Positions 3,914 through 27,403 of a stretch of DNA of 45,547 nucleotides are shown in pieces. This stretch comes from a virus. Below the pieces are notes generated by a model. That model did no database searches. It was not told the DNA's origin and saw only the letters and a program-made list of their open reading frames with translations. The stretch covers positions 1 through 45,547 of IMG/VR virus record IMGVR_UViG_3300028025_001941; one strand, 5' to 3'. Every line of letters starts with the position of its first letter. Position 1 is the first letter of the stretch. Made by a program: the position numbers and the translations under genes.

Positions 3914-4082
3914 CGGTGTTACTCGAAGAAGGTGTCAGCGTTCTGGGTGTAATGAATATGCTTATGTCAAAATAGGTATGAACTTTAAGATAATTCTATG
4001 TGCAGATTGCCGAACATCGGAGTGGAACAATGAGTCAGTCAAGGAAACATCGTGGCTACCGCAGTCAGAAAGTATTGGCTGA
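3903..4082 (+). CDS. Small Cys-rich zinc-ribbon-like protein, present only in this version
   Basis: A 59-residue ORF with a GTG start at 3903 overlapping the previous stop. Two cysteine pairs, CQRSGC and CADC, are spaced like a small zinc ribbon. It runs into the start of the resolvase gene in another frame. The second version has no counterpart: there the upstream TAG is directly followed by the resolvase ATG (43218-43223). So about 115 bases were inserted or lost as a gene-sized unit. The GTG start and lack of a strong ribosome-binding site leave some doubt. Confidence 0.5.
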   Translation: MLSNGVTRRRCQRSGCNEYAYVKIGMNFKIILCADCRTSEWNNESVKETSWLPQSESIG

Positions 4083-5207: not shown

Positions 5208-5568
5208 AGATGAACCTCCTCATAATTATTGCAATGAATGCGATGTGCAATTTGAGGATTCATTTCAACTCATTGACCACATATTGGAGGACGATGATGA
5301 GTTTGACCCTTACTTGGTGCTACCAAATGGGATTAAGTTATTGCTCGGTTCACTACTGAGATATGTATTTGCACACGCTGAAGAACCAGATAAGATAAAA
5401 GTTATAACCCAATCAACCTATGTAACCTTGTTCGCTGCTGAGAATGGCTACGACCCATTGGAAGATTTGATTGAGGATATGGTGATTAAGTTAGAGTTAC
5501 AAAACTTTGATGAGAACTTTAAAAAATTTATGGAAGAGGAAAATACTGATGGAGAAGGCGGAGCGTGA
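5197..5568 (+). CDS. C2H2-like zinc-finger protein, unknown function
   Basis: 123 residues with a GTG start at 5197. This start overlaps the TOPRIM stop by 11 bases, has AAGGTGGG upstream, and gives exactly the same length as the homologue at 44397. The N-terminus has YCNECDVQFEDSFQLIDHIL, a Cys-x2-Cys ... His pattern of a finger. A helical domain follows (LPNGIKLLLGSLLRYVF, then ITQSTYVTLFAAENGY) that is conserved in both versions. The tail is acidic. It is likely a DNA- or protein-binding accessory factor of the replication operon. Confidence 0.65.
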   Translation: MNFEDEPPHNYCNECDVQFEDSFQLIDHILEDDDEFDPYLVLPNGIKLLLGSLLRYVFAHAEEPDKIKVITQSTYVTLFAAENGYDPLEDLIEDMVIKLELQNFDENFKKFMEEENTDGEGGA

Positions 5569-5574
5569 AGAGAT

Positions 5575-5946
5575 ATGGCAGATTATAACCCACTTGGTAG
5601 AACAAGGACTGAACGTGCAGAGTTACACAGTGGAGGGGGCTACGCTAAACGTGATGCTATCAATTCCGATTTTGAGCAAGCGGTCTGGGACACAATGAGA
5701 GAACTCGGTGACCTGCTATTGAGCAAGCACCGCGACTACGGCCCAAAGAATATCTCTGACTCACCTGGCGGTGCACTTAACGGGCTGCGTGTACGTATGC
5801 ACGACAAGACTGCACGGATTAACAACTTGATTGACAATGGCACTACGGCGCAACACGAACCCCTAGAAGATTCCTTCAAAGACCTAGCAAACTATGGTAT
5901 CATTGCTCTTCTAGTCTTAAGGGGTAAATGGGACAGTGGCAAATAA
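5575..5946 (+). CDS. DUF1599-like protein (nucleotide-modification or NTP-hydrolase-like)
   Basis: 123 residues, variable in the first 30 and highly conserved afterwards: LLLSKHRDYGPKNI, PGGALNGLRVRMHDKTAR, then EPLEDSFKDLANYGIIALLV. This pattern of a helix with a K-x-x-DYG motif and a terminal E-x3-D-x2-D-x2-NY helix is what I associate with DUF1599, an all-helical family found in many phages and thought to be related to nucleotide pyrophosphatases. Activity is not demonstrated here. It overlaps the next gene by 11 bases. Confidence 0.65.
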   Translation: MADYNPLGRTRTERAELHSGGGYAKRDAINSDFEQAVWDTMRELGDLLLSKHRDYGPKNISDSPGGALNGLRVRMHDKTARINNLIDNGTTAQHEPLEDSFKDLANYGIIALLVLRGKWDSGK

Positions 5947-6334
5947 ATCTAGTTTTGATTTAGACTTTGGGTACGGGCGTAAAGGTGAGCAACTTGTAGA
6001 TGACTTGCTTACTGGCAACCTTACCGTTGAAGTCAAGCGTGACCGCAAATGGTTTAAGACCAATAACCTTTATATAGAGACTGAGTGCTTCTTCCAAAAG
6101 GCGGGAGACTGGGCACCCTCTGGGCTAGGTGTAACTGAGGCTGGATACTGGGCGTTTGTGTTGCAAGACTCAACGTTGATAGTGCCAACCGATGTTCTGC
6201 GCTATGCGGTAAAAGAATTTGGCAGAGAGATTAGTTGTTTCATTCCCCCTAATCAAAGCAAAGGCTTCCTCATTACTGTAGATGACTTGATGACTGCGAC
6301 TAGGAAATATAAAGATGATGCTGGAGTGGAATAG
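5936..6334 (+). CDS. PD-(D/E)XK nuclease-like protein, unknown role
   Basis: 132 residues, GTG start overlapping the previous gene; the second version uses ATG at 45140. GRKGEQLVDDLL and LTVEVKRDRKW give a Glu18 ... Glu32-x-Lys34 pattern typical of PD-(D/E)XK enzymes, followed by an aromatic-rich NNLYIETECFF strand. The C-terminal half is very conserved between versions (TEAGYWAFVLQ, FIPPNQSKGFLITVDDLMTA). It could be a small endonuclease or a nuclease-fold structural protein. Confidence 0.6.
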   Translation: MANKSSFDLDFGYGRKGEQLVDDLLTGNLTVEVKRDRKWFKTNNLYIETECFFQKAGDWAPSGLGVTEAGYWAFVLQDSTLIVPTDVLRYAVKEFGREISCFIPPNQSKGFLITVDDLMTATRKYKDDAGVE

Positions 6335-6974
6335 AATAGAGCCTTGGCAATACGTAGTTGATACTGTCGCCAAAGAATATAAAAAGCGTTTTCATATGGT
6401 GGACATTGAAGACATCCGCCAGACTTTGTATCAGTGGTTTGTTGAGCACCCTAATAAACTTACGGCTTGGGAAGAGATGGGTACTCGTAGTGCGAAGAAC
6501 CTTATCTATCGCAGTCTGCGTAACCAAGCCCTCGACTATTGCCAAGAGTGGAAGGCTAACTCGTCAGGGTATGAGTCAAGCGATTTGTTTTATTATGAAT
6601 CAGACTTGGTTGAAGCGTTGCTTCCTTCTGTCTTAAGAGGTGAAAAGAATATTACTCATAAGTTAGACCTTGGCAGAATTAGTGGTGGCTCTGCGCCCTC
6701 TGAAGGTGGCAACCTGCAAGCAATGATGATTGAAGTTGAGGCTGGTTACAACAAGTTGGCTAAAGAAGATAAGCAAGTCTTGTTTCTTCGATACGCTGAA
6801 TCAATGGATTATGAAGCAATCGGTAAAGAGTTAGACCTTGGTAGTGAAGACGCTGTTCGTATGCGTAACAATAGAATTGTACGCCGATTGATTCAAAAGA
6901 TTGGTGGCTTTAAACCATTCTATGATAGAGATGATGTGCCAGTTGCTTCTGAAGAATCTTCTCTAGAGTCATAG
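6315..6974 (+). CDS. Sigma-70-like (ECF-type) RNA polymerase sigma factor
   Basis: 219 residues. A region-2-like segment (about 29-80) includes DIRQTLYQWF and AKNLIYRSLRNQALDYCQEWK. A region-4-like helix-turn-helix follows (about 143-197), with YNKLAKEDKQVLFLRYAESMDYEAIG, then an ELDLG turn and a basic recognition helix with VRMRNNRIVRRL. It ends the replication operon, overlapping the nuclease-like gene by 20 bases. Its position next to the SAS-bearing array and the late genes suggests that it, perhaps with the WhiB protein, switches transcription. The 3' end overlaps the convergent 6920-7075 gene by 55 bases. Confidence 0.7.
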   Translation: MMLEWNRIEPWQYVVDTVAKEYKKRFHMVDIEDIRQTLYQWFVEHPNKLTAWEEMGTRSAKNLIYRSLRNQALDYCQEWKANSSGYESSDLFYYESDLVEALLPSVLRGEKNITHKLDLGRISGGSAPSEGGNLQAMMIEVEAGYNKLAKEDKQVLFLRYAESMDYEAIGKELDLGSEDAVRMRNNRIVRRLIQKIGGFKPFYDRDDVPVASEESSLES

Positions 6975-7420: not shown

Positions 7421-7828
7421 TTAATACCAATTCCTACGTTGATGGTGTTTCCAAGCCTTGCAAGGTGTGCCATACCTATGCTCAATGTACTTGTACGCCT
7501 TGAGTATCTGTATTGCTGGGTCCTTGCTTTTTTCTTTAAGCATTTGTGCTATGCCGTAAGCACTACTTCCTTGCTGGTTCTTGGCTAGATGGTCGAACCT
7601 ACTCTCTTTAGTGAAGATGTAGACAATACAGGCCCGCTGAGTTTTATCCCAGCCCCATCCAGCCTTTGCAAAACTTATAGCCATAGCCTTGTTCCGTTGC
7701 TTATCTTCCCACGTGGCTTTCGTCTTAATACGTGGTTTTATCACTACATCTACCGTAACTGTGTGAGTTATCGGGGCAAGTGAGGCAAGTAGAACAAGTG
7801 CTGTGACTATAATCGCTCGCTTTTTCAT
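7421..7828 (-). CDS. Secreted lytic transglycosylase (SLT-like)
   Basis: 135 residues. An N-terminal signal or anchor (MKKRAIIVTALVLLASLAP) is followed by a compact lysozyme-fold domain. IFTKESRFDHLAKNQQGSSAYGIAQM carries the catalytic Glu (residue 75) in the ESRFD context and the GSSAYGIAQ motif of soluble lytic transglycosylases. The C-terminus is short and basic. It is unusual here, away from the main lysis cassette and inside the early-type regulatory array. It may remodel the wall early, add to lysis, or be carried in the virion. It overlaps the WhiB gene by ATGA. Confidence 0.8.
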   Translation of the reverse strand: MKKRAIIVTALVLLASLAPITHTVTVDVVIKPRIKTKATWEDKQRNKAMAISFAKAGWGWDKTQRACIVYIFTKESRFDHLAKNQQGSSAYGIAQMLKEKSKDPAIQILKAYKYIEHRYGTPCKAWKHHQRRNWY

Positions 7829-8169
7829 ACACTAATTCTACCAATTATCTTTCTAACATCACGTCTGTGTCGCTGCTCGTGTCGCACAGAATTATGTGTG
7901 TGTTTAAGGCCAGCCAATAACGCCCGTTCACCAGTCAATAACCCGCCCCAAATTGAGCCTACTCCACCCACGCTTAGAATGTTTTCCTGTTCTAATCCTT
8001 GCTTCAAACATTGGACTTTAACTGGGCAGTCGTGGCAGATTTCAATTGCTTCTACACTTCTTAAGACGTGAAGTCTTTGCTCGTCTACCAGCGTTGAGTT
8101 TTCGTAGTGCCATAAGTCTGGGTCTGGGTGCCCATTACAGAGCCCCTCTGCGTGCCACGTGCGGTTCAT
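7825..8169 (-). CDS. WhiB-family transcriptional regulator
   Basis: 114 residues. Four cysteines, C11, C45, C48 and C54 (CHDCPVKVQC), form the Wbl iron-sulfur site. They are followed by the family's turn, here GSIWGGLLTGERA, and a basic C-terminal tail (RHEQRHRRDVRKIIG) for DNA contact. WhiB proteins occur only in actinobacteria and their phages and act with the host principal sigma factor. It overlaps its neighbours on both sides by 4 bases (ATGA). It is a likely regulator of phage or host transcription, and the best single host marker here. Confidence 0.92.
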   Translation of the reverse strand: MNRTWHAEGLCNGHPDPDLWHYENSTLVDEQRLHVLRSVEAIEICHDCPVKVQCLKQGLEQENILSVGGVGSIWGGLLTGERALLAGLKHTHNSVRHEQRHRRDVRKIIGRISV

Positions 8170-11976: not shown

Positions 11977-12606
11977 CTATTCTTGAATCTCGAACTCTTG
12001 TTCGCAGTTCTGGCACTTAGGGGCGCATAGTTCGAACACTTTACGACTTAGGCGAATCTTAGCCTCGCAGGCGCAGATTGCCACGAGATTGTTCTTGTCG
12101 CGCCCTTTCTTGCCTGCTGCCTGCTCGGTGTCTGCTGTGAGGGCTAGGGCTGCCTCAATGAGTGCCAAGGCCTCGCTCCATCGCTCGGCGCACTCGTCGG
12201 AAACCTCGGTGTTGCTCCACCCGATACGCTTAGCCTGTGTGATTGTGAGGCCTAGGGCCTCGGCTGTCTGCTTGAACTTCTTATTGTGGTAACCGTCACC
12301 TGTGACGCCTTGGATTCCATTCTGGAGGTCTAGGCTGTGCGCTGTCTCGTGAAGAAGTGTGCCAAGGATAGCGCGGGCACCGCGTGGGAAATACTCGGCG
12401 GAAATCATAATCTCGTGGAATGAATCCTCGCCAGAAATCCAAGGCTTGGCGTGTGTGAAGTGTCCCATTGTGTTGCCTGTCTTACGGGTGACGAGGATTG
12501 TGGCGCGGGGTGCGCCTGTCTTCTCTTGAATCAAGGCGTGAGCAGATTCTAGGGCCTCGGTGATTATTGAAAGATTCTCGGTCTTTCTTGTTGTTGTTGT
12601 TTGCAC
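11977..12606 (-). CDS. SprT-like zinc metallopeptidase-domain protein
   Basis: 209 residues, GTG start fixed by an SAS variant (12611-12625). The HExxH zinc motif is LLHETAHSLDLQ (H86, E87, H90), followed by GYHNKKFKQTAEALGL, as in SprT-like domains. The C-terminus has CACEAK and CAPKCQNCEQEF, a zinc ribbon as in SprT/Spartan relatives. SprT-like proteins are common in actinophages and act as proteases on DNA-protein complexes in eukaryotes; the phage role is unknown. It is the first gene of the minus-strand array, directly after the candidate promoter. Confidence 0.82.
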   Translation of the reverse strand: MQTTTTRKTENLSIITEALESAHALIQEKTGAPRATILVTRKTGNTMGHFTHAKPWISGEDSFHEIMISAEYFPRGARAILGTLLHETAHSLDLQNGIQGVTGDGYHNKKFKQTAEALGLTITQAKRIGWSNTEVSDECAERWSEALALIEAALALTADTEQAAGKKGRDKNNLVAICACEAKIRLSRKVFELCAPKCQNCEQEFEIQE

Positions 12607-13316: not shown

Positions 13317-15185
13317 ATGGGACGCAAGCCAGGAATCCAGAATATACCGAAGAAGGAAGCCCAGGAGAAGGTACTTATCCAACTCAGCCAGGGGGCAACT
13401 ATTATCTCCGCTATGGCTGGGGTGGGCCGAAATGACGTCACCTTCCGACAGTGGGTGATGGCAGACCCTGAGTTCAAGGAGCGAGCAGAGAAAGCCCGCC
13501 TTGAAGGCAAAGGCATCAAAGCAGACCTTGCCGACTTAAAGGATATTTCCTTTCCCGACTTCTGTGAGCAGTTCTTAGACTCTAAGTTGTTCCCCCACCA
13601 GTTGAACTGGATGGATATGATAGAGGGTAGGGCCCCTAGGTGGTTACCACCAGGTATGACCTACGAACCAGGCGAGGCTGACCGAGTACTTATCAACGTA
13701 CCCCCAGAGCACGCCAAGTCCACCACTATCACCACCAACTACGTTTTGTACAAAATCGTCACCAACCCAAATCACCGAGTCATTATCGTCTCTAAGACTC
13801 AGGGTATGGCACGTAAGTTTCTTGGGGCAATCAAGACCAGACTTTCACACCCTGCCTACACCAAACTGCAAGTGGCCTTCGGCCCCAACGGCGGTTACAA
13901 GGCAGATGCTACCCAGTGGTCAGCCGATATGATTTACTTAGGTACAGGCCGTGACTCTGGCGAGAAGGACCCTACCGTCCAGGCCCTAGGTATGGGTTCT
14001 CAGATTTACGGTGCCCGTGCAGACTTGATTATTGTGGACGACGCAGTAATGGGTGCTAACGCTCACGAGTGGGAAAAGCAACTTGAGTGGCTTCAGAAAG
14101 AAGTTATCACTCGTCTTGGTAGACACGGTAAGTTAATTATTGTTGGAACCAGAGTGTCATCAATTGACCTCTACAAGATGCTGAGGGACCCTGGGCAGTG
14201 GTCGGGTGGGGTAAGCCCCTTCACCTACTGCGCTATGCCAGCAGTCTTGGAATTTGACGAAGACCCGCTTAACTGGAAAACACTCTGGCCTGAAACGGAC
14301 CAGCAAGAAAATGCAAAGGACGATGCATTACCAAATGGAAATTTTCCCAAGTGGGACGGACCTTCTCTCTTTAAGCGTCGCTCTCAGGTCAGCCCGTCGG
14401 TTTGGGCTATGGTCTACCAACAAGAAGACGTACAAGAAGACTCCATCTTCTCACCAACCTGCGTCGCAGGAAGCGTCAACGGAATGCGTAAACGCGGACC
14501 TCTCAAAGCGGGGGTTGTAGGCCATCCGAAAAATACTGACAATGCTTACACCGTTATTGGCTTTGACCCTGCTATGTCAGGGGCTTCTGCTTTTGTGGCT
14601 GTTTCGTACAATCGAACAGACGGACGAATTTACGTTCTAGACTGCATCAATATGACAGAACCTACGCCAGCAAAAATTCAAGGCGTAATTGAAGAGTGGG
14701 TTGAAAAATATCGCCCTCAGGAATTCCGTGTAGAAATTAACGCACACCAGAAGGCATACTCTCTGGATGACAACTTAAGAAACTTTTTAGCCGCATATGG
14801 CTGCCAGTTGAATTCACACTTTACTGGTAAGAATAAATGGGACACATCTTTTGGTGTGGCATCAATGGCAAGCCTCTTTGGTTCTGTCAGAGAAGGACGC
14901 TTTCAAGATAATAACTTGATTGAGTTGCCAAGCAATGAAGGCTCAGAGGGAATCAAAACCCTTATCCAGGAACTTATTACCTGGAAGCCAGATACCAAGA
15001 ACCCTACCGACTGCGTAATGGCACTTTGGTTTGCAGTTATTCGTGTACGCGAGTTGATGCAACAGAGTACAAGAGTTGGACAGTACCAATCAAACCGTTG
15101 GGCAACAAGAGCACAAATGTCCCAGCGTGGCTCAATTAATTTAGATGAAGAGTTCGCCTCACAATGGGCGGAACAATACGGTTAG
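13317..15185 (+). CDS. terL: Terminase large subunit with N-terminal DNA-binding extension
   Basis: 622 residues. The packaging ATPase has the Walker A-like NVPPEHAKSTT (127-137), Walker B LIIVDDA (Asp241/242) and a coupling motif GTRVSSIDLYKML (about 277-289). The nuclease domain begins at VIGFDPAMSG (Asp417) and ends with PTDCVMALWFA. The first 70 residues (QLSQGATIISAMAGVGRNDVTFRQW) look like the helix-turn-helix of small terminases. Since I see no separate small subunit, both functions may be in one protein. GGAAG precedes the ATG. Confidence 0.9.
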   Translation: MGRKPGIQNIPKKEAQEKVLIQLSQGATIISAMAGVGRNDVTFRQWVMADPEFKERAEKARLEGKGIKADLADLKDISFPDFCEQFLDSKLFPHQLNWMDMIEGRAPRWLPPGMTYEPGEADRVLINVPPEHAKSTTITTNYVLYKIVTNPNHRVIIVSKTQGMARKFLGAIKTRLSHPAYTKLQVAFGPNGGYKADATQWSADMIYLGTGRDSGEKDPTVQALGMGSQIYGARADLIIVDDAVMGANAHEWEKQLEWLQKEVITRLGRHGKLIIVGTRVSSIDLYKMLRDPGQWSGGVSPFTYCAMPAVLEFDEDPLNWKTLWPETDQQENAKDDALPNGNFPKWDGPSLFKRRSQVSPSVWAMVYQQEDVQEDSIFSPTCVAGSVNGMRKRGPLKAGVVGHPKNTDNAYTVIGFDPAMSGASAFVAVSYNRTDGRIYVLDCINMTEPTPAKIQGVIEEWVEKYRPQEFRVEINAHQKAYSLDDNLRNFLAAYGCQLNSHFTGKNKWDTSFGVASMASLFGSVREGRFQDNNLIELPSNEGSEGIKTLIQELITWKPDTKNPTDCVMALWFAVIRVRELMQQSTRVGQYQSNRWATRAQMSQRGSINLDEEFASQWAEQYG

Positions 15186-15192
15186 GATAACA

Positions 15193-16986
15193 ATGGCATT
15201 ATCAATTGAACAGATTGCAGCGCGAGTTGACGCTTTGCGCTACCGCAACTCAGAACGTGATGCCCGCAACCTTGACGTGCTTGCAGTACGTAAGGGTAAG
15301 ATTGCAGAAGTTTATCCTGACTTCTTTCCAGACGGCGTTGATGCTAACGTAGTTGCCAACTTTATTGACATTGTTGCCCGTGACCTTTCTGAGGTTATGG
15401 CTCCGCTGCCAGCAGTAAACTGCTCTGCAGCAAATGCAACAAATGACCGTGCACGTAGTTTTGCTGACAAGCGCACACGTATTGCGTCAAACTATTTTGC
15501 ACATTCAGACCTAGCAGTACAGATGTACTCAGGCGCTGATTGGTATATTACCTACGGTTTCCTCCCATTCTTTATTGAATTGGACGAGGAAGCGAAGTTG
15601 CCACGCATCCGCATAGAAAATCCAATTGGGGCTTACCCAGAATTTGACCGCTATGGACGCTGTGTTGCTTTCGCAAAACGATACACAATGACACTGGGCG
15701 AACTCATCACACAGTTCCCTGAGTATGAATATCAGTTGCTTGGTGGTTACAACTACAAGCAAGACTTAAATGCTCAGATAGAGATGATTCGCTACTATGA
15801 CAAAGACCAATCAACTATCTATATCCCAACCAAGCAGAATCTAGTTCTTTCACAAGTAAAGAATTTATTGGGTAAGATGATGGTCGTAGTTGCACGTAAG
15901 CCATCTATTGATGGAGAACTACGTGGACAATTCGACGACATCCTAGGAATTCAACTACTACGCAACCGATTTGCATTGCTTGCTATGGAGGCCGCAGAGA
16001 AATCTGTACAGGCTCCGATTGTTTTACCACAGGATGTTCAAGAACTGCAGTTGGGTGGAGACGCGGTTATCCGTACATCCAACCCAGCAGGTGTTCGTCG
16101 TGTAGAACTATCACTACCACAGGGTGCATTCACAGAATCAGCACTCCTGAATCAAGAACTCCGCGTTGGTGCACGTTATCCTGAAGGACGTACGGGTAAT
16201 ATTGATGCATCTATCGTTACTGGACAAGGTGTACAGGCGCTTATGGGCGCATTTGATACACAAGTTAAGTCAGCACAAGCAATTTTTGCTTCAGCATTGC
16301 GTGATGTAATCAGCACTTGCTTTGAAGTTGATGAAGTTCTTTATCCACAAGAGAAGACAATTCGTGGCGTGGACTCAGGTTCACCTTACGAAGTCACCTA
16401 TCTTCCAAAGAAAGACATTAAGGGCGACTACTCGGCAGATGTTCGTTATGGAATGCTTGCTGGTTTAAACCCTGCACAAGGTCTTATCTTTATGCTTCAA
16501 GCATTAGGTGGCGGTCTTATCTCTAAAGATATGGCTATGCGTGAACTTCCATTTACAGTCAATGTTACTCAAGAACTTGAGAAGATTGAAGTTGAAAATA
16601 TGCGTACAGCATTGCTCAGTGGACTAACAGCAATGGCACAGCAGACACCTATGATGGCGGCGCAGGGACAAGACCCATCAGAGATGATAAATAAGATTGC
16701 TTTGGTAATCAAGGCTCGCCAAAAAGGCCAAGCACTTGAAGACGCGATTGAAGAAATCTTCGCGCCGAAGCCTCAAGTTCCTCCTGCTGGGGCACAAGAA
16801 ATGGTTGAGCAACCGTCCCCTGCTCCCGAAGGCGTTCCAGCAGGAGGCGCTCCTTCACCAGAAGGTGCAATGGGACCAGAGATGATTCCTCCAGAACAGG
16901 CACCACCAAGTATTATGAATTTGCTTTCTAGCCTTTCAGGCCAAGGAGAAGCATCAGCAAGCGTTAGAACTATCAACCGCAGATAA
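15193..16986 (+). CDS. Portal protein
   Basis: 597 residues from MALSIEQIAARVDALRYRNS. This start is taken because AGGATAACA stands before it and the longer frame overlaps the terminase. It lies in the usual place after the terminase, has the usual length, and contains a long helical stretch with QVKSAQAIFASALRDVISTC. The C-terminus is Pro/Ala/Gly-rich. No short motif identifies portals with certainty, so position carries much of the weight. Confidence 0.78.
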   Translation: MALSIEQIAARVDALRYRNSERDARNLDVLAVRKGKIAEVYPDFFPDGVDANVVANFIDIVARDLSEVMAPLPAVNCSAANATNDRARSFADKRTRIASNYFAHSDLAVQMYSGADWYITYGFLPFFIELDEEAKLPRIRIENPIGAYPEFDRYGRCVAFAKRYTMTLGELITQFPEYEYQLLGGYNYKQDLNAQIEMIRYYDKDQSTIYIPTKQNLVLSQVKNLLGKMMVVVARKPSIDGELRGQFDDILGIQLLRNRFALLAMEAAEKSVQAPIVLPQDVQELQLGGDAVIRTSNPAGVRRVELSLPQGAFTESALLNQELRVGARYPEGRTGNIDASIVTGQGVQALMGAFDTQVKSAQAIFASALRDVISTCFEVDEVLYPQEKTIRGVDSGSPYEVTYLPKKDIKGDYSADVRYGMLAGLNPAQGLIFMLQALGGGLISKDMAMRELPFTVNVTQELEKIEVENMRTALLSGLTAMAQQTPMMAAQGQDPSEMINKIALVIKARQKGQALEDAIEEIFAPKPQVPPAGAQEMVEQPSPAPEGVPAGGAPSPEGAMGPEMIPPEQAPPSIMNLLSSLSGQGEASASVRTINRR

Positions 16987-17000: not shown

Positions 17001-17543
17001 ATGACAACAATAATCGGAATTGAGTACGATAGTCATTCACTTATTGTTGCCGATAGTCAGACAACAGATGACTCTGGTTTTATTTACAGCCATCCTGATA
17101 TTCAGAAAATTGCAGAACGCGGTTCTTTTTTAATCGCTGGCTCTGGCGAAGTACTTCCCTGCGATGTGGCGCAACACATCTGGGAGCCACCAGTAGTAAC
17201 TGCTAAAGACCGTAAAGATATTTACCACTTTATGATTACAAAGGCTATGCCTTCGTTACGTAAATGTTTGAGTAGCAATGGTTACAACTTTGATGAATCT
17301 AAAAGTGAATTAAGATTTCAGTTCTTAATGTCAGTATGTGGTGAACTTTTTGATATTGACCACGAACTATGCGTAAACAAAACTAAAAACAATATTTATG
17401 CTGTAGGTTCAGGTGCGTCTTATGCACTTGGCGCACTTCACGCTGGCGTAGACGCTTTTGAAGCGATGGAGATTGCAGCAAAACTAACAGCATTTACTGC
17501 TGCACCGTATATATCCAAGACACAATTCAAACACATTAAGTAG
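17001..17543 (+). CDS. Proteasome/HslV-like Ntn hydrolase, candidate prohead protease
   Basis: 180 residues. After Met removal the protein starts TTIIGIEYDSHSLIVADSQTT. Thr1 and Asp17 fall exactly where HslV and proteasome beta subunits have them, and QKIAERGSFLIAGSGE supplies a lysine (35) near the expected Lys33. A second family feature is YAVGSGASYALGALHAG. It occupies the slot between portal and capsid where phages usually keep the head-maturation protease. Peptidase activity is inferred, not shown. It has GGGG before its ATG and is followed by scaffold-like proteins. Confidence 0.75.
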   Translation: MTTIIGIEYDSHSLIVADSQTTDDSGFIYSHPDIQKIAERGSFLIAGSGEVLPCDVAQHIWEPPVVTAKDRKDIYHFMITKAMPSLRKCLSSNGYNFDESKSELRFQFLMSVCGELFDIDHELCVNKTKNNIYAVGSGASYALGALHAGVDAFEAMEIAAKLTAFTAAPYISKTQFKHIK

Positions 17544-17552: not shown

Positions 17553-18008
17553 ATGGCAGAAAATAGAGGCGGAATGCGCCCGACTGCACCACAGAATAAC
17601 CCTGCTAATGTTTCAGCAACTGGTGGCAACGGACAATCTGGTCGTGACTACACAGGTTTTGCCTATGGTCAGAACCAAGCACTTGCAGAACAACAGGCAT
17701 CAGCGCCTATGGCTGCAGCACCTGCACCAGTACGACCACCATCACAGGCTATGCCAGGTATGGGCGGCGGAGTTACACCATTAGATGAATTGCAACCAGA
17801 CGGACGCCCTATCTCAGATGGCGTTGACTTTGGAGCAGGTCGTGGTTCAGAGGCTTTGCCTTCACGCATCACATCTCCTATGAATCAGTCTGAAAACCTT
17901 GACCTTATCAAGCGTTACCTACCCGATTTGATTAATGCAACACGTATTCCTAACGCACCAGATTCATACAAGCGATTCGTTAACTATCTGAGAGAACAGA
18001 TACTTTAA
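17553..18008 (+). CDS. Low-complexity virion-associated protein, unknown
   Basis: 151 residues. The N-terminal two thirds are disordered and rich in Ala, Pro, Gly, Gln and Met (SAPMAAAPAPVRPPSQAMPG); the C-terminus is a folded helical segment (LDLIKRYLPDLINATRIPNA). Strong AGGAGG before the ATG. Composition resembles scaffold or decoration-linker proteins. It ends overlapping the next start (TAATG). Confidence 0.65.
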   Translation: MAENRGGMRPTAPQNNPANVSATGGNGQSGRDYTGFAYGQNQALAEQQASAPMAAAPAPVRPPSQAMPGMGGGVTPLDELQPDGRPISDGVDFGAGRGSEALPSRITSPMNQSENLDLIKRYLPDLINATRIPNAPDSYKRFVNYLREQIL

Positions 18009-18211
18009 TGCAGTGGTTAGAAAATGGATTTTTTGACCATCTAGATAAGTTTGCAAACTCTCTAGGTTATGAAAATTATGAAATTGCAATTCCTTTGGCA
18101 ATGGTCAAGTGGAAATCTCCTGAGGATAGGGATGTATTCATTATGACTCTTACCAATCAGGATGTTAAAGGCGGCGGTGCACACAACTTTAATCCATTGG
18201 CGGTGAAGTAA
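18008..18211 (+). CDS. Unknown small morphogenesis-region protein
   Basis: 67 residues, MQWLENGFFDHLDKFANSLG, then a strand-rich KSPEDRDVFIMTLTNQDVKG. Coupled by TAATG at both ends between the low-complexity protein and the 1710-residue protein. No family recognised; perhaps a chaperone for the giant neighbour. Confidence 0.65.
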   Translation: MQWLENGFFDHLDKFANSLGYENYEIAIPLAMVKWKSPEDRDVFIMTLTNQDVKGGGAHNFNPLAVK

Positions 18212-21200
18212 TGTCATTTTGGGATGGATTTCTTAATACATTTAAACAGCGCGAAAGCGGACGTAACTTTATAGGCGATGCTCTTGTGGGTTTAGGCAAG
18301 GCTGTCGTTGCAGCGCCAGGTGCACTTGTAAACCAACTTATTGTTGAGCCTACAGTTAAAGGTTTAGAAAATTCTGCATACAAAGCAGGATATTCTCCAG
18401 AAGAAGTAGCATCTGCTGGTATTGGAATTCAACAGTCCAAGATTGGACAGTTCGCTCAAAAAGAACAAGATAAGTTTATTACACAAAGTCTTACTGCATT
18501 TGACCCACTTCTTCGCGTTGGTGCTGTAGCAGAAGAGTACGTATTTTCGCCATTAATTGCACGTCCAATATCTACAATTAACTTACTTTCAGACCCATAT
18601 AGCCCATTATACAATGATGAAAAGTATGGCAAAGGTGTACAACTAAGCGATATTCGTGATGCTTGGAATCGAAGCGCTGATGTATCTCTTGGCCAGGCAA
18701 TTGTTAAGTCTTCTGGAATGCTCGGAGTAGCACAATCTGCAATCCTTACCGCTAATGGTATGGATATGTCTCAGGTAAATCTTTGGGATGACGAAAGTAT
18801 TCAAAAGAATTTTGTTGACGACAGTTTAGGTTCTTTCATTAGTGGAATGAACGACTTTGTTATTAAGAACATAGCGATTAATGCTGCCTTTGTAGGTGTC
18901 GGTGCAGCCGCTAAGGCTGGCTCACTTCGTGCTGGTCTTAATACAAAGTTTAAGGCTACCGATGCTGAAGCAATGCCTTTGTTTGAAAAGGATATGACCG
19001 ACCATATTGACTTTGTTAATAGTGGCGGGGCTACTGGAACTCAAACTGTAATTGGTCAAGATGTTATAGACCTTGCAGCATCTGAAAATATTGTTGATAT
19101 TATTCGTATTGTAAAAAAGCATAGTTATAACCCTGCTCTCCCAGACCTTATTAAAACAACAAAAGACCCAGCAGTTGTTAGAGACCTTTTGCTTGCAGAC
19201 AAAGGCTACGGTCCAGCGATTGAGCGTCTTGCAGCACTAAGAATGTCTGATGACCTTTGGATACTTGGTGATGCTACTGCTATAACTCGTGGCAGATACA
19301 TTACAGATGGCAAGTTGCCAGACTACACACCAGAACAGCGTGCCCGTTGGACTGCAGCATTTGATGATGCTATAGCAAAAAATCCTAAGCATCAAGAAAT
19401 TTATGATGCTTTCTTGAGACAGGAACTTGATGAGTCTACTGGACTTCTTAATACAGAAGTATTAGCGCTTGGTAAAAACTATAAGCCAATGGAACCAATC
19501 ATTGGTCGCGGTGTTGTTGGGGCTGTTCGCTCACGTGTTGGTCAGATTAAGACCGCTGCTATGGAAAGAAACTTTGTTGGCCTTGGTGGCGTAGCAGAGA
19601 CAGTTCTTGGTGGCAGTATGAAGGGTCCAGTTACAGTCTTAATGCGCCAGTTCGGCACCTATATGCCTAAAGGTATTATTACCAACTCTGGCCTACGTCC
19701 AATGAATGGCGTAGATGAATTGATGTCGGTCTTTGACGACATTCCATTATTTAGAGATGGCTCTAGAATTGTCGAAACTCACACACGTGAGATGATGACA
19801 GCGGCGGCCTACCGTCGTCAAGTTATTGACCGCTTTGTAGCAGCCAAGACCGACGGCGAACGTGCTATTGTTATTGATACAGTAAACAAAGAGATTGCTC
19901 GTACACTTGCTTTCTCACGCGGATACTACGACGTTAATAAAATTGACAATATGGTTGATGAATTAATGTCAGAAATTTACAAAGTCCACTCTGGTCTACG
20001 CAAAGAAGGATTTGCTATGGACCCACAAGGAGTGCGAGTAGTTGTTGACCCACGCACTCAGCGTCAGTTGGCAAACTCTATGCCTATGCTTCCACTAGGT
20101 GAATTTGACCGTATGATTTTGCGTCTTGCACGTTCAGAAAAAAACGTAGTAACAGGTGGTGCAACAGCAATAAAACAGGGAACTGCATCAGCAGCACGTA
20201 CATTATTTGAAGGCTCAAGCAGAATTTTCTCTATTGCTCAACTTTATCGTTTTTCATATATCCCAAAGAATTCTATATTTGAGCCTTTACTAGCAGCAAC
20301 CCTTGCAGAAGGTGTGTCATTTGCAAGGCCAATGTTTACCACCGCAATCTGGAGTACCATCAAAAAGGGTAGAAACATTATTGCCCGAAATGTAGCAAAA
20401 TCAAAAACGCTTGCTCCTGGTGCTAAAAAAGAAATTCAAGACGAAGTTAAGGCGCTCTCAGACCAGTACAATCAGGCTATCCTTAATCGTGATATGGCCT
20501 ATGCAGATTACGAAGCATTCTTTGGAGTTGGAACTGGTATCTCTCCAGCAGCAAAACGTGACTGGTCAGATGAAATTAGAATGCGTCTTAAGGATGCAGA
20601 AAATGACGTTGCTGCAATTGAAGGCAGACTTAATGTTTACGCTACCGAATATGGTCAGCCAATATCGGTTCCATCAATTTACAACTTACGTCGCAGAATT
20701 CAGTATCTTAAAGATGCAAAAGACCCACGCTTTGCTGGAGATATAGCAGCAGCGGAGATGACACTTGCCCGTGCCGTAGAAGACGTTAATACTATGACAC
20801 CTGAATTGAATACTCTTACCGCACAAATTGCCGCAGCATACGACGAAATTGGAAGAGTCATTGAAGCGCTTGGTCCAACTGGTGTGCGCCAAGCAGACCT
20901 ATTCGAGGTATCTGAAGCACGTTACTTAAAAGAGCCTTTCCTTGCAAAAACACAGACTGTGCAATTATCAAATGGTCAAACATTAGAATTTCCTTCTATT
21001 GCAAATCGTGATAATTTTGGCGAAGGTTACCTATCTGAAATTTCTAACAATGCAACACGTACACTTGAATTCTTAGGTAACAAAGCATCAGTTGCTAGAA
21101 CAATCAGCATTAGTGCTCGCTCACCAAAGAGCATAACTAATGTTGCTGACCCAACGTACTTTGATGAACTAGCATTTGTTGTTAATACTCAGATGCGTGG

Positions 21201-23343
21201 CGATTTACTTATTGACAGAATTCTTTCTGGTCAATCTCGTGAACAGTTGCTACAGTGGACAACAACAGGTCAAGGTAAATTCTATATTCGTCAGATGGGT
21301 AAGACTCAAGACGAAGCAATTAGAATGGTTGATGAGCAGATTATATTTGTTCAGAAGTACCTGCCTACTTATGAGGCACGTCAAATGGCTCTTAAGGGTG
21401 AGGTTACTCCATCAGCACTACGACGTGAATTGTCAGAGAATCTAGACCAGATGTCTCCTATCCACCCACTTGATATTGAATACTCAAATGCAAGTCTTAG
21501 GGGTACTCCAGGCGCAGCCATTGATGCAGCGTTAGCAAAAACTTGGAGAACTTTGATGAAGCCAGAAAACGCTATCCGCGAAGTCTGGGGTACAACACGC
21601 CACAATGCAATTATTGCCGAAAGAGCAGAGCGTTTAATTGCTCAGGGACAAACAATTGATGTATCTACAATGAATACAATTCACCACGCTGCAGCAATTC
21701 AACTTGTTGATGAAGTGGCAAAGGTATTCTATACAATTCCACGTCAGCACCGTGCACTTTATCTTGCTCGTGGACTTGCAACATTTCCTAATGCTGCTGC
21801 TTCTGGTATCTATCGTTATAGCCGATTCGCTGTTAAGAAGACTCCACGCTTTGGTGGCTTCCTAAACAGTTACTATGGCCTCTACAACTCATTCGGTGTA
21901 GACGAAAATGGTAACCCAGTTGATGACCCAATGAAGGCTAAGTTCCTTCTTGTTCCTGGAACAAAACAAATGGGACTCAACAATGGCAAGGGTGTCATTA
22001 TTAATGCACGTGCTACAAACTATGTAGCCAACTTCCCAGGTGCTTCCTGGATGGTGCCTATTGCACTTAGCGACATTTATGGAAATAAACCAAACGACGA
22101 AGATGAAATCAAAAAAATGATTGATTCTACATTTGGCAAAATTCCTGGATATTCTTATGACGAACTGTTCCCATATGGAATTGAACCTGATACGCTTAAG
22201 CAACTTGGCAATACATTTACTCCAGCCTGGGCACGTAATTTGGTTCTAGGTTTGACTGCAGATAAAGACACTACAAATAGAATGTTTGTTGATTCTTGGA
22301 TTTCAGAAAACAACCGTCAGTGGATTTTGTACGATATGGGCAAAGGTCCTCTTCCAACAGATAAATCTGTTATTGATGGGGCAAAGAGCATTTATCTACG
22401 TAAGGCACGCACCCAGTTCTTCTCGATTCTTGGTACGCCACAATACGTAGAGTCACGACCAGATTCACTTTATCGTGACTACTACTACGGACTTTTTAAT
22501 GAATATCAGTTAAAGGGTATGTCTTCAACAGAGGCAAGCAAATTAGCCGAAGAAGATTTTAACAAATATATGCAAGCAGAGACTGGCGCACAGTTCCCTA
22601 TGGACCGACTCTTTGTTGGTTCTCAGGATTCTGTTACATATATTACTCCAAGCCAAAAGGCTTACGACAGAATTTGGGATAATTTTCCTGGACTTGCAAC
22701 TAAGTTACGTCAGGTTGACCCATCTGTAATTGGCCTTATGGTTGCTGACCTACCTAAGGAATATAGCCCTCAGGTTAATAAGTTTCTTAACTCAACAACT
22801 GCTCGTTTTCCAGATGGGACAATGGTTAACAAGGCGCTCAAGACACCTCAGTTAGTTGAAGAAGAAATTGAAAAGTCACGTTACTGGGCTGCATACACTG
22901 CAGAAAAGAAACGATACAACGACGCAGCCAAGGCCGCTGGTTACCCAAGTTATCTAAGTGTTCCTGAACTTAAGGCACGCCTTAAAGACTATGCGGAAAA
23001 TACTCTTGGCAAAGGCAGTTTTGCTTGGTCACAGGAATACCAAAAGAATGCAACTAAAGGTAACCAGGCTTGGATTCAATCTCAAGGTCTTGCAACAATT
23101 GTTAAAGACCAAGAGTTTATGAGTAAGTATGGTAAGACTCAGTTCTGGCAGCACGCTAAGGCTTTTGTTAAGTATCGCAACGAATATGCAGCAGCATACA
23201 AAGATGCGCCTACTGGTACAAAGGGAATGGTTAAGGATGCTTGGGCTAACTATCTTGCTTCTAGTTATGATATGTGGGACCCAGTGCTTCAAAGAATGAT
23301 TACAAGATACTTTGAAAATGATAATATGAGGGAGAACAAATAA
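18211..23343 (+). CDS. Very large putative internal virion/ejection protein
   Basis: 1710 residues, the largest gene and about 13% of the unit genome. The N-terminus has several Gly/Ala-rich amphipathic or hydrophobic stretches (GKAVVAAPGALVNQLIV, NAAFVGVGAAAKAGSL). The middle (about 735-900) is coiled-coil-like, with EIQDEVKALSDQYNQAI and LKDAENDVAAIEGRL. The C-terminus is charged and helical. No tape-measure gene is seen elsewhere and the phage looks short-tailed, so an ejected internal core protein is the best guess. Its position before the capsid gene is unusual. No lysozyme motif was found by eye. Confidence 0.6.
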   Translation: MSFWDGFLNTFKQRESGRNFIGDALVGLGKAVVAAPGALVNQLIVEPTVKGLENSAYKAGYSPEEVASAGIGIQQSKIGQFAQKEQDKFITQSLTAFDPLLRVGAVAEEYVFSPLIARPISTINLLSDPYSPLYNDEKYGKGVQLSDIRDAWNRSADVSLGQAIVKSSGMLGVAQSAILTANGMDMSQVNLWDDESIQKNFVDDSLGSFISGMNDFVIKNIAINAAFVGVGAAAKAGSLRAGLNTKFKATDAEAMPLFEKDMTDHIDFVNSGGATGTQTVIGQDVIDLAASENIVDIIRIVKKHSYNPALPDLIKTTKDPAVVRDLLLADKGYGPAIERLAALRMSDDLWILGDATAITRGRYITDGKLPDYTPEQRARWTAAFDDAIAKNPKHQEIYDAFLRQELDESTGLLNTEVLALGKNYKPMEPIIGRGVVGAVRSRVGQIKTAAMERNFVGLGGVAETVLGGSMKGPVTVLMRQFGTYMPKGIITNSGLRPMNGVDELMSVFDDIPLFRDGSRIVETHTREMMTAAAYRRQVIDRFVAAKTDGERAIVIDTVNKEIARTLAFSRGYYDVNKIDNMVDELMSEIYKVHSGLRKEGFAMDPQGVRVVVDPRTQRQLANSMPMLPLGEFDRMILRLARSEKNVVTGGATAIKQGTASAARTLFEGSSRIFSIAQLYRFSYIPKNSIFEPLLAATLAEGVSFARPMFTTAIWSTIKKGRNIIARNVAKSKTLAPGAKKEIQDEVKALSDQYNQAILNRDMAYADYEAFFGVGTGISPAAKRDWSDEIRMRLKDAENDVAAIEGRLNVYATEYGQPISVPSIYNLRRRIQYLKDAKDPRFAGDIAAAEMTLARAVEDVNTMTPELNTLTAQIAAAYDEIGRVIEALGPTGVRQADLFEVSEARYLKEPFLAKTQTVQLSNGQTLEFPSIANRDNFGEGYLSEISNNATRTLEFLGNKASVARTISISARSPKSITNVADPTYFDELAFVVNTQMRGDLLIDRILSGQSREQLLQWTTTGQGKFYIRQMGKTQDEAIRMVDEQIIFVQKYLPTYEARQMALKGEVTPSALRRELSENLDQMSPIHPLDIEYSNASLRGTPGAAIDAALAKTWRTLMKPENAIREVWGTTRHNAIIAERAERLIAQGQTIDVSTMNTIHHAAAIQLVDEVAKVFYTIPRQHRALYLARGLATFPNAAASGIYRYSRFAVKKTPRFGGFLNSYYGLYNSFGVDENGNPVDDPMKAKFLLVPGTKQMGLNNGKGVIINARATNYVANFPGASWMVPIALSDIYGNKPNDEDEIKKMIDSTFGKIPGYSYDELFPYGIEPDTLKQLGNTFTPAWARNLVLGLTADKDTTNRMFVDSWISENNRQWILYDMGKGPLPTDKSVIDGAKSIYLRKARTQFFSILGTPQYVESRPDSLYRDYYYGLFNEYQLKGMSSTEASKLAEEDFNKYMQAETGAQFPMDRLFVGSQDSVTYITPSQKAYDRIWDNFPGLATKLRQVDPSVIGLMVADLPKEYSPQVNKFLNSTTARFPDGTMVNKALKTPQLVEEEIEKSRYWAAYTAEKKRYNDAAKAAGYPSYLSVPELKARLKDYAENTLGKGSFAWSQEYQKNATKGNQAWIQSQGLATIVKDQEFMSKYGKTQFWQHAKAFVKYRNEYAAAYKDAPTGTKGMVKDAWANYLASSYDMWDPVLQRMITRYFENDNMRENK

Positions 23344-24437
23344 TGGCTGAAAATCCACCACCACCACCAGGTGGCACTATTGTTGTTCCACCAAGAGCAG
23401 ATACAAAAGAAAAAGTTTACATTTGGATGCCAAATTCTAATGGCAATCTTGTAAAGGCTGACGCTTCTATAATCAAGAAGTCTTTTGCTAAACTTCCTTT
23501 AAACTCTCAGATTGCTCTTTCTGAATATCTTCTTGGAGTATCTAATCGTCAACCAACAGATTCTGCTCGGCAGAACCTATGGAACGACATTGTAGATGGT
23601 GCAGTAGCAGCCTTCAAGGAAGGCAAGAAGCAATCACCTTGGGACGTTCTTCAGGTAATGACCGAGAACTCACCAATGAATCTTGGTGTTACCACAAACA
23701 TTATTAAATACGATGCCGTCAATGCAAATGCTTTGCTTAATAAAATTAGCAAGTCAATTGGCTTTGATATGTCACTCCTTACGGAGGCTGATAGAGCAGA
23801 CTTTCTTGCTAAGGTAAACGCTGAGGCTGCAATGGGTAAGACAACCACTCGCAAGGCTACTACTGGTGGCTACGAGACGGTCACAACGCCATCAGCCTTT
23901 GACCCTAAATCTTTTACTGAGTCATTTCTCTGGGCCAAGGTAAATCTTGGAGATACTAAGAGTATTCCATCTGCAGCAATTAAGCAGATTTCTAACGTCT
24001 CTACACTTCTTAAGTCATACGGAATCAACAACTTAAGTGCTAAAGAAATCAATGCTCTTGGAGTAGAAGTTGCTTCTGGAACTAAAACAGTTGACGACTT
24101 AAAACTTGAATTTTCAGAGAAAGCACAGAAACTTTACCCAGCCTATGCTGACCGCTTAAAGTCAACACCTAACCTTACTATGTCAGATATTGCAGAACCT
24201 ATCATTGGAACTCTATCTAAGGTTTGGGAAATGGATGCTGGTTCATTTGAACTATCAGACCCTAACGTAACTCGATTCTTAAACCCAGATGTTACTGGCA
24301 AGGCCCCAGCCCCATCTATTACAGATGTCTACTACTACGCACTTAATCACCCTAACCGTGAAAAAACAAAAGCAGCAAACGAAGAGGCTAGAGACGCAGC
24401 AACCGCGTTTGCCCGTGCTGCTGGATTTGGACTCTAA
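23343..24437 (+). CDS. Unknown structural protein with proline-rich N-terminus
   Basis: 364 residues beginning MAENPPPPPGGTIVVPPRAD, then mostly helical, with repeated SIPSAAIKQISNVSTLLKSY-like segments. Overlaps the preceding stop (TAATG) and is followed at once by the next ATG. Co-transcription with the giant protein and the next coiled-coil protein suggests one internal-core complex. No family recognised. Confidence 0.6.
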   Translation: MAENPPPPPGGTIVVPPRADTKEKVYIWMPNSNGNLVKADASIIKKSFAKLPLNSQIALSEYLLGVSNRQPTDSARQNLWNDIVDGAVAAFKEGKKQSPWDVLQVMTENSPMNLGVTTNIIKYDAVNANALLNKISKSIGFDMSLLTEADRADFLAKVNAEAAMGKTTTRKATTGGYETVTTPSAFDPKSFTESFLWAKVNLGDTKSIPSAAIKQISNVSTLLKSYGINNLSAKEINALGVEVASGTKTVDDLKLEFSEKAQKLYPAYADRLKSTPNLTMSDIAEPIIGTLSKVWEMDAGSFELSDPNVTRFLNPDVTGKAPAPSITDVYYYALNHPNREKTKAANEEARDAATAFARAAGFGL

Positions 24438-25826
24438 ATGGCACAAACAGCAGCCCAGAAAAAAGCAGCGGAATTAGCAGCAAATAAAAAACTTCTTGCT
24501 CAGGCACAGGCTCTCCTTGAAAAACAAAAGGCTCAGTTAAAGGCTCTTGAAACACAACAAGCAGAAGCAGCAAAGATTAAAACGGACTTTGAAGCAGAAC
24601 AAAAACTTGCCAAAGAAGAAGCAGCCAAAGAAAAATTTGATGCACGCCTTGAACGTATTCGTTCAGAGCGTGTAGCAAAAGAGGCTACTACCAAGGCAAA
24701 TGCAGCCCTTGCTGCTAATCCAGCACTAGGTGCCGTAAAAGGCTCTAATATTTTTCAGATGCTTGGTGGAATTCTTTACTTTAGTGGAGTTCCATTTACG
24801 GGTAATGAAGGTGGCAAGAAGTATGTAAATGGTGTTGATACAGGCGTAGCGCCAGACTCAACAACAGGAAATGATACTGCCACAGTTAAAAATACTGACG
24901 CTGTTGTATTTGCAAATGAAACTCCTGGACTTGCGGTTGATACTTTTCGCAAGACACTTTCATTATATTTTGGAGAAACAGAATCAAAGAAGCCTTGGGT
25001 AGATTCACTTTACAAAACTGCTTCTGGTTTTTATAAGACTGGTTCTACTGCAGATGAGTCAATGAACCTAGCCTTAATGGCTGCACGCAATGACCCAAAT
25101 ATGAAACCATTTACAGATAGATTTTCAGCAATCTACAAGTTACAGGACCTAAAGGCTGGAGGCGCTTCTGTTGAAGTGCCAACAATTGCGGAGTTTGTAA
25201 AATCTCAAGAGGCAATGGGTGACGTATTTAGAAGAAGTAATCTAAATGACCTCGCCGTAGATTCTTATACTAGCGAATTACTTGGCAAGGGAATCTCTGT
25301 ATCTACTGTTGCCGAGAATATTACAAAGGTTTTTGATGTAATTGACCAGGCTCCTAAAGAGCAAAAAGATACATTCAGCCGTTATTTTCCAACCGTAGAC
25401 CGAGGCAAACTTGCTAAGGCTTTGCTTACTGGCACAAAAGGTTTTGCTGAACTTGAAAGAGAAGTCCAGGGATACCAAGTACTTGCAGCAGCAGAGACTC
25501 AAGGCATTGGTGCAAATACACTTACTGGTGGCATTACAGCAGAACAGGCATCAAACTATGCAGCAGGTGGAGCGACATACCAGTCCACAATTGCTGGCTT
25601 TGGTCAGGTAGCACAAGCCCGTCAAACAGAGCAGAAACTTGCTGAGATTTCTGGGCAGAAGTCAATGGGTGTTGCTGGTTTAGCAGAAGCCGTAGTTGGC
25701 AAGAAAGCCTCAGCGCTTAGTGAACTTGAGAAACTTACACTACAAGAAGAAGCCCGCTATAAGGCTAAGTCTGGAACTACTTCAGTCAGCCTAGCGTCAG
25801 AGCGTAGAGGCGCTGGCTTAATATAA
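24438..25826 (+). CDS. Coiled-coil virion protein, unknown
   Basis: 462 residues. The first 100 are Ala/Lys/Glu-rich heptads (LLEKQKAQLKALETQQAEAA) forming a long coiled coil. They are followed by a mixed domain (FQMLGGILYFSGVPF) and a helical C-terminal half with an alanine-rich GVAGLAEAVVGKKASAL. With the two preceding proteins it makes a trio resembling the internal or ejection proteins of short-tailed phages. Confidence 0.6.
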   Translation: MAQTAAQKKAAELAANKKLLAQAQALLEKQKAQLKALETQQAEAAKIKTDFEAEQKLAKEEAAKEKFDARLERIRSERVAKEATTKANAALAANPALGAVKGSNIFQMLGGILYFSGVPFTGNEGGKKYVNGVDTGVAPDSTTGNDTATVKNTDAVVFANETPGLAVDTFRKTLSLYFGETESKKPWVDSLYKTASGFYKTGSTADESMNLALMAARNDPNMKPFTDRFSAIYKLQDLKAGGASVEVPTIAEFVKSQEAMGDVFRRSNLNDLAVDSYTSELLGKGISVSTVAENITKVFDVIDQAPKEQKDTFSRYFPTVDRGKLAKALLTGTKGFAELEREVQGYQVLAAAETQGIGANTLTGGITAEQASNYAAGGATYQSTIAGFGQVAQARQTEQKLAEISGQKSMGVAGLAEAVVGKKASALSELEKLTLQEEARYKAKSGTTSVSLASERRGAGLI

Positions 25827-25945: not shown

Positions 25946-26422
25946 ATGAGCAACAACTACTGGGACGACGAAGATGATGACCTAGATACCGAGCAGTTTG
26001 CTGGTGATGGAAGTGACTTGTTAAAGAAGTTACGAAAAGCCAAACGAGCAGACGAGAAGCGTATTAAAGAACTCACTGAGCAACTTGAGGGACTTTCCAA
26101 GGTGCAGCGTGAGAGAACCGTCAAAGAAGTCTTAGAAAAGAAGGGTGTTAATCCAAAGGCTACACGTCTTGTCCTTAAGGACTTGGATGACGTTACCGAA
26201 GATTCAGTGAATAACTGGCTCGAAGATAACGCAGACTTGTTCGGACTGACTGTAAGCGAGGAAGCAGCACCTGCTAGTAATGACGTTGACCGTGCTGCAT
26301 TACGTCAGCAAGACGTTATTACTCAGGGTGCAATAACCCCTGATAGAGCACAAGATGCATCATTAAGAATTGACGGCGCACAAAGCGCTGAAGAACTTAT
26401 TGCATTTATGCGCTCACAATGA
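25946..26422 (+). CDS. Scaffold / capsid assembly protein (by position and composition)
   Basis: 158 residues from MSNNYWDDEDDDLDTEQFAG. Highly acidic N-terminus, then a charged coiled-coil segment (RKAKRADEKRIKELTEQLEG) and a disordered C-terminal part ending in a helix (AQSAEELIAFMRSQ). These features and its place directly before the capsid gene fit a scaffold. The ATG at 25946 is preferred to an upstream in-frame TTG because GGGTGGG lies before it. Confidence 0.7.
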   Translation: MSNNYWDDEDDDLDTEQFAGDGSDLLKKLRKAKRADEKRIKELTEQLEGLSKVQRERTVKEVLEKKGVNPKATRLVLKDLDDVTEDSVNNWLEDNADLFGLTVSEEAAPASNDVDRAALRQQDVITQGAITPDRAQDASLRIDGAQSAEELIAFMRSQ

Positions 26423-26458: not shown

Positions 26459-27403
26459 ATGGCTTATGTATCCACAGCCTCTGACAATCTCGGAGGAACC
26501 GCTGGCTCTGCTGGTCTAGTCCAGAAGGCGTATGACCGTCTTCTAGAGTTCGCTCTCCGTTCTGAACCACTAATTCGTTCAGTCGCAGATAAGCGTCCAG
26601 CACGCCAGGCAATCCCAGGTTCAACAGTAGTTCTACAGCGCTACGTTGACCTTTCAGCAGCAACAACTGCTCTTACAGAAACAACAGACCCAGATGCAGT
26701 AGCAATGTCTACACCAACATCTGTAACCATCACTCTCAATGAGTATGGTAACTCAGTGCTCGTGACACGTGCGTTGGAACTCTTCAGCCTTGCTGACGTA
26801 GACCCAGCAATCGCTAACATCATTGCGTTCAACCTTGCAGATTCAATTGACTCAGTTGCAATGACAACATTGCGCGGAGGTTCAAACGTAATCTACTCAG
26901 GTTCAACAGCAACATCAACCGCTACAATCACAGCAGCAGCAACGCTATCTTCAGCAAACATCCGTAAGGCTGTTGCGAAGTTGCGTGCTAACAAGTCCGT
27001 TGCCCGTAAGGGTTCAATGTACTGGGCTGGTATTCACCCAGAAGTTTCACACGACCTTCGTGCTGAGACTGGTGCAGGTGGATGGCGTTTGCCACACGAG
27101 TACAACGAAAGCCAGAACATTTGGGCTGGCGAAATTGGTTCATACGAGGGTGCTTACTTTGTTGAGTCACCACGTCTCTACTCTGCAACAGACGGTTCTT
27201 CATCTGCAAAGGTGTACCGCACTATTCTTTGCGGACAGCAAGCGCTTGCAGAAGCAGTTGCTGAAGAGCCACACGTAGTAATCGGTAACGTAACAGACCG
27301 TTTGATGCGCTTCCGCCCAATGGGCTGGTACGGCGTTCTCGGTTTCGCACGTTATCGTGAAGAAGCCCTGTACCGTATTGAGTCAGGTTCATCAATCGCT
27401 TAG
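26459..27403 (+). CDS. Major capsid protein
   Basis: 314 residues, MAYVSTASDNLGGTAGSAGL at the start. The central pattern, TTALTETTDPDAVAMSTPTS, then a strand ITLNEYGNSVLVTRALELF and DSIDSVAMTTLRGG, resembles the N4-gp56-type HK97-fold capsid proteins. The C-terminal domain has WAGIHPEVSHDLRAETG and WYGVLGFARYREEALYRIE. Position after the scaffold, strong GGAGGTGA site, and high-expression-like codon use (GCA, GTA, AAC) all agree. Confidence 0.82.
   Translation: MAYVSTASDNLGGTAGSAGLVQKAYDRLLEFALRSEPLIRSVADKRPARQAIPGSTVVLQRYVDLSAATTALTETTDPDAVAMSTPTSVTITLNEYGNSVLVTRALELFSLADVDPAIANIIAFNLADSIDSVAMTTLRGGSNVIYSGSTATSTATITAAATLSSANIRKAVAKLRANKSVARKGSMYWAGIHPEVSHDLRAETGAGGWRLPHEYNESQNIWAGEIGSYEGAYFVESPRLYSATDGSSSAKVYRTILCGQQALAEAVAEEPHVVIGNVTDRLMRFRPMGWYGVLGFARYREEALYRIESGSSIA

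Follow-up and report, generated by a model that had tools for sequence, protein, structure and literature searches.

Homologues of the proteasome have already been described in phages, and the protein examined in this paper adds another. In the sections of the survey of Fuchs, Alva and Lupas (2021, PMC8665760) drawn on here, PPH and AAH are presented as homologues of the proteasome that occur in phages and in the hosts of these, and PPH is described as a form of about 140 residues without helix H2. The same sections state that no gene context suggestive of PPH or AAH function was found, and that the authors could not find AAH in any phage specific to Actinobacteria. Among cellular proteins, BPH (5ovs/5ovt/5ovu) is a 14-mer without a partner ATPase according to the cited part of PMC5777263, and HslV (ClpQ) is the peptidase of HslUV. 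In the cited part of PMC7823757, a jumbo phage HslV without HslU is placed among the genes of additional function, and prohead proteases are listed separately. Homologues in named phages (DSL-LC01, WaterT, D'Alembert, Hum25, MTATph1, AAS21, PAc, and VpV262) lie in small-gene or metabolism regions. This holds for the named members of the family phrog_1040 considered here, with the exception of phiM5, whereas the gene examined here lies directly behind the portal gene. The 'putative peptidase' Sm_phiM5_03 of Sinorhizobium phage phiM5 is also encoded in the head module; its order, however, is TerL, peptidase, portal, scaffold, capsid, so that both slot and branch differ. Three phages related to phiM5 by TerL (MW202496, MW202711, and Pseudomonas AF) have other genes in this slot and no copy of the family, and therefore, judged from gene order, the phiM5 slot between TerL and portal is again an accessory one.

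The window, meaning the whole stretch of viral DNA that was analysed, comprises 45,547 nucleotides (IMG/VR record IMGVR_UViG_3300028025_001941). The coordinates of the protease gene, its catalytic codons and the surrounding late genes are collected in Table 1.

Table 1. Features of the protease locus and of the late operon, in window coordinates.
Feature	Position	Strand	Evidence or remark
Terminase large subunit (TerL)	13317..15185	+	phrog_38 1.7e-69, PF17289
Portal	15145..16986	+	phrog_104 1.1e-27; protease start 14 bp past portal stop
HslV/BPH-like Ntn hydrolase gene	17001..17543	+	180 aa; mature N-terminus expected at Thr2 (= Thr1)
Thr1 nucleophile codon	17004..17006	+	residue T2 of ORF
Asp17 codon	17052..17054	+	residue D18 of ORF
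Lys33 codon	17106..17108	+	residue K36 of ORF; aligns with Lys of BPH 'NQK'
151-aa protein	17553..18008	+	phrog_8200; closes the slot on its 3' side
67-aa late-operon ORF	18008..18211	+	no family match
1710-aa protein	18211..23343	+	phrog_10618, function unknown
364-aa late-operon protein	23343..24437	+	phrog_6654
462-aa late-operon protein	24438..25826	+	phrog_8424
Scaffold-like protein	25946..26422	+	phrog_7813 4.1e-30 (unknown function)
Major capsid protein, PF13252 family	26459..27403	+	phrog_1357 1.1e-83, PF13252 2.4e-17

An earlier note, made from the DNA letters, had proposed that the 180-aa ORF (N-terminus MTTIIGIEYDSHSLIVADSQTTD) is an HslV/proteasome-like Ntn hydrolase, and the profile searches and structure prediction agree with this. 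The ORF matched phrog_1040 'peptidase HslV family' at E=1.6e-23, and the profile of 30 relatives matched PDB chains of BPH (1e-8), HslV (best 1.5e-8), and proteasome beta. The score against the Pfam Proteasome model PF00227 was 20.4 bits, below the cut-off of 22.4; the curated HslV models NF003964 and TIGR03692 gave 20.5 and 17.1 bits against cut-offs of 137 and 157.75, and the archaeal proteasome beta models were far under their cut-offs. The AlphaFold2 model (pLDDT 91.2, pTM 0.88) superposes on BPH, HslV, and proteasome beta. BPH is the closest structure by Foldseek (E 5.7e-11) and the best solved fold by VIA-align (Z 18.0 over 164 residues), with Z about 16-17 for HslV, Anbu, and proteasome beta subunits and Z 16 for actinobacterial proteasome chains. 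A long helix (74-92), a last helix (152-162), and an end strand (170-176) are predicted, and the model has the compact proteasome beta-sheet fold without the C-terminal helix H5, as defined in PMC8665760. By predicted fold and profile match, the protein is an HslV/BPH-like Ntn hydrolase with the proteasome fold.

As regards the active site, the note had aligned Thr1 and Asp17 with HslV and proteasome beta subunits and had pointed to a lysine near position 33, and all three residues were borne out by the relatives. Among 254 distinct relatives, the Thr1 column holds T in 252, Ser in 1, and a gap in 1, an ORF with a missing start. Asp17 is D in 253/253 relatives with a letter there, and Lys33, its position set through the profile alignment to BPH, is likewise K in 253/253. 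Of the 254, 225 have the serine of the GSG motif and 25 have T in its place. The N-terminal Thr/Ser nucleophile, Asp17, and Lys33 that define group I Ntn hydrolases are thus all present. There is no propeptide, the ORF beginning MTT, and removal of Met ahead of Thr is expected from methionine aminopeptidase. Since Thr1, Asp17, and Lys33 are nearly universal in the relatives, the protein is very probably an active peptidase, as judged from residue conservation.

Each of the described forms resembles the window protein in part. With BPH it shares the best solved fold, the best profile match, and the lack of a propeptide; the two are only about 22% identical, however, and BPH is cellular. Thr1/Asp17/Lys33, the GSG motif, and the fold are common to HslV, a dodecameric double ring with HslU as its AAA+ partner, from which the window protein is set apart by its low scores against the curated models and by the phages having no HslU-type ATPase: no AAA_2 match was obtained in 16/16 phage records, whereas control genomes matched in 14/14. 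Like PPH, it is a compact, phage-borne group I form, and the phiM5-type relatives (about 140-170 aa) are PPH-like; by the published description, as far as the cited sections of PMC8665760 give it, the window protein itself falls outside PPH, with 180 aa and a second long helix at 74-92. The phrog_1040 members of Moorella MTATph1, Geobacillus E3, and VpV262 share the family match, the N-terminal Thr, and the active site, and the proteasome fold is the same in predicted viral structures. A pattern scan of genome contigs for cellular homologues gave 43 pattern matches, with 0 relatives among them.

The place between portal and scaffold/capsid that the note had assigned to the gene is confirmed: the gene belongs to the late head operon and adjoins the portal gene. 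The capsid gene is not adjacent, and five other ORFs lie before the scaffold-like and capsid genes. The scaffold-like ORF also has weak matches to phrog_648 head scaffolding (0.008) and DUF4355 (0.012). The 1710-aa protein is weakly similar to gp9 of Streptomyces phage Immanuel3 (22.6%, E 1e-5), and from its size and place it is probably an internal virion protein. This very large protein and its equivalents keep a constant size of about 1650-1930 aa and diverge to about 30% identity or past recognition, with the portal staying near 80%. A WhiB-family regulator (window 7825-8169, minus strand, PF02467 2.8e-9) points to an actinobacterial host. Among phages with a name, those of Streptomyces come nearest by portal (29/31 records) and capsid (29/54 records). 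Two of them, Immanuel3 and FlowerPower, are Beephvirinae. Because of the WhiB gene and these nearest relatives by portal and capsid, the host is likely actinobacterial.

Several other features of the window can be seen. Its ends (1-6337 and 39272-45541) carry the same gene block twice at 79-94% identity. Therefore, the record is longer than one genome (about 39.3 kb) and does not represent a single clean one; two related strains are probably joined in it. The window also has three small methyltransferase-like genes that resemble one another, of which those at 795-1352 (minus strand) and 40067-40642 (minus strand) match Methyltransf_24 and that at 34554-35126 (plus strand) matches PHROG methyltransferases. 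A SprT-like metallopeptidase candidate with a HETAH motif lies at 11977-12606 (minus strand), scoring 25.4 bits against the Pfam cut-off of 25.6.

The position behind the portal is nearly constant among carriers of the gene. The protease starts 13-20 bp past the portal stop in 229/231 loci with a portal match, and at 96 and 308 bp in the two remaining ones; these 231 loci comprise the window and loci picked up by searching with the protease, and some contigs recur among them, the 229 protease-found loci amounting to 181 distinct stretches. Another 18 protease loci, belonging to named phages and to contigs of the phiM5 type, lack a portal of this kind. For an unselected test, contigs were collected with the window portal, a more distant portal, and the capsid, and the slot between the portal and the next head-operon gene was read by profile. 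The protease occupied the slot in 63/64 readable contigs found with the window portal, in 36/69 found with the more distant portal, and in 19/22 found with the capsid, the loci of the protease, portal, and capsid searches overlapping in contigs. Otherwise, the slot was filled by an unrelated protein of 73-89 aa whose tail is acidic (e.g. L510:16922-17149, minus strand) or by an 86-aa protein (L264), or it was empty (L465, with 17 bp from the portal to the next head gene). The profile of the 73-89 aa protein found 43 loci, and the protease filled the slot in 0 of these. Pfam gave no match, and PHROG none that was convincing, for the 75-aa protein that occupies the slot in minus phages, for the 86-aa protein, or for a 1680-aa protein. 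On its far side, the slot is closed by a protein of the 151-aa type in 10/10 protease-plus and 7/7 protease-minus records.

Relocation accounts for one of the slot absences only. The whole-record search, which found the protease in 11/11 plus records as a positive control, found no moved copy in 11/12 slot-minus records; the single exception (G009, L495, 76.6 kb) has a protease gene behind the capsid gene. Four of the minus records (G004, G006, G007, and G008), with genomes of about 40 kb, look complete because they carry terminal direct repeats of 123-127 bp; another (G005) has a terminal repeat of 38 bp.

The distribution of the gene was also compared with the phylogeny of the portal (FastTree, 311 columns, 105 rows), for which 354 portal fragments were reduced to 218 distinct ones with a readable slot and to 105 after dropping near-copies above 95%. 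Presence and absence require at least 7 changes on this tree, all 7 forced by well supported branches, against a shuffled mean of 21.8. Allele groups defined at 60% identity require 15 changes among the carriers, although recombination inside portal genes could add changes on the tree. Portal fragments 94-95% identical precede proteases only 29-40% identical, as in one case of 94.6% portals and 29% proteases. These sequence comparisons suggest that the protease is probably an exchangeable accessory cassette between the portal and the next head-operon gene. The active site is kept in an exchangeable gene, and therefore proteolysis appears to be selected for.

The reading that we favour, with a probability of roughly 60%, is that the gene encodes an active stand-alone group I proteasome homologue, an accessory protein acting in the infected cell and dispensable for head assembly. 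The protease would be produced late, together with the portal, and host methionine aminopeptidase would expose Thr1. The subunits may then form a ring that works independently of any AAA+ unfoldase from the phage, and by analogy with BPH the protein may be an ATPase-independent self-compartmentalising peptidase, though host HslU could serve as a partner. The probable targets would be host proteins, either unfolded ones or specific ones with roles in stress, defence, or regulation, or else surplus phage proteins. In this scheme, the activity of the enzyme, its assembly into rings, its late expression, where it acts, and what it cuts are all inferred. The pattern of exchange resembles that of host-facing genes more than that of head-building genes. 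Two points count against an accessory role: the gene may be near-essential in the lineage of the window portal, where it is so rarely missing, and a gene placed right behind the portal in the head operon might well be expected to serve the head or the virion.

Such a virion function could be that of a cargo enzyme ejected with the DNA, acting early on host proteins or trimming ejected proteins. The protease opens a variable block between portal and scaffold (with the 1710, 364, and 462 aa proteins), where genes for ejected proteins could lie. However, the type of large protein is not strictly tied to the protease, since the 1726-aa family occurs in 6/7 minus and 1/10 plus records. Moreover, portal, scaffold, and capsid of phiM5 carry the note 'detected in phage particle proteome' and its protease homologue does not, a weak point given the small size of the protein. 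A cargo role is considered unlikely, though more probable than the other alternatives.

The note had also suggested head maturation, that is, a protease in or on the prohead that cuts scaffold, capsid, the portal tail, or internal proteins. The head-operon place behind the portal in nearly all carriers agrees with this, as does a head-protease role left unfilled: no S78, ClpP, or S49 protease (PF04586, PF00574, PF01343) was over cut-off in the records searched, though the capsid proteases annotated in WaterT and D'Alembert are also unmatched over cut-off, and divergent proteases can escape these models. Below cut-off, PF04586 reached E=0.007 in G009 and PF00574 reached E=0.018 in D'Alembert; PF03420 matched nowhere, controls included, and is uninformative. 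Against it stands much the same head with and without the gene. The carrier G019 and the non-carrier G005 are 85% identical in TerL, 84% in portal, 71% in scaffold, and 91% in capsid, and also 69% in the 145-aa protein and 50% in the large protein; between G019 and a second non-carrier, G008, capsid and scaffold are 89% and 74% identical. The gene is thus encoded in the head module without being kept wherever capsid and scaffold are kept, and contigs found by portal or capsid do not always carry it. Carriers and non-carriers have similar capsid N-termini, in which the conserved region comes right at the start, and the window capsid likewise has no long N-terminal extension that could be removed. 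The gene is also absent from the cultured Streptomyces phages Immanuel3 and FlowerPower, which have the same module (Immanuel3: TerL 46%, portal 43%, capsid 53%). Finally, the homologues of WaterT and D'Alembert are not part of the head module, and both phages have a capsid protease with an annotation of its own. With near-identical head modules lacking the gene and no substitute protease recognised in them, head maturation was not upheld and is regarded as quite improbable; the second suggestion of the note, degradation of host proteins, fits the distribution better. Least probable of all is co-assembly with, or poisoning of, the host proteasome or HslV, for although the fold is that of host beta subunits, the actinobacterial chains among them, and the host is likely actinobacterial, a dominant-negative subunit would not need the catalytic residues, all of which are kept, and the closest fold is that of the self-sufficient BPH.

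In the open-access literature searched, no paper linking a proteasome homologue to a phage portal or head module was found, nor was an exchangeable head-operon slot behind the portal. The phage proteasome homologues catalogued earlier lacked a known function; here, hundreds of contigs place a phage proteasome at one definable position within the virion operon. The loci also advise caution, as not every portal-adjacent protease should be read as a prohead protease. The role of a phage proteasome becomes testable, since natural phages differ in its presence or allele with the capsid much the same. More tentatively, it is conceivable that a large actinophage-type group uses the junction behind the portal gene, ahead of the next head gene, as a slot for rapidly exchanged effectors, whose commonest occupant, the phage proteasome, would dismantle host proteins, possibly anti-phage ones, late in infection. 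If this is true, the alleles, the 73-89 aa alternative, or the empty slot would mirror the host or the defence encountered.
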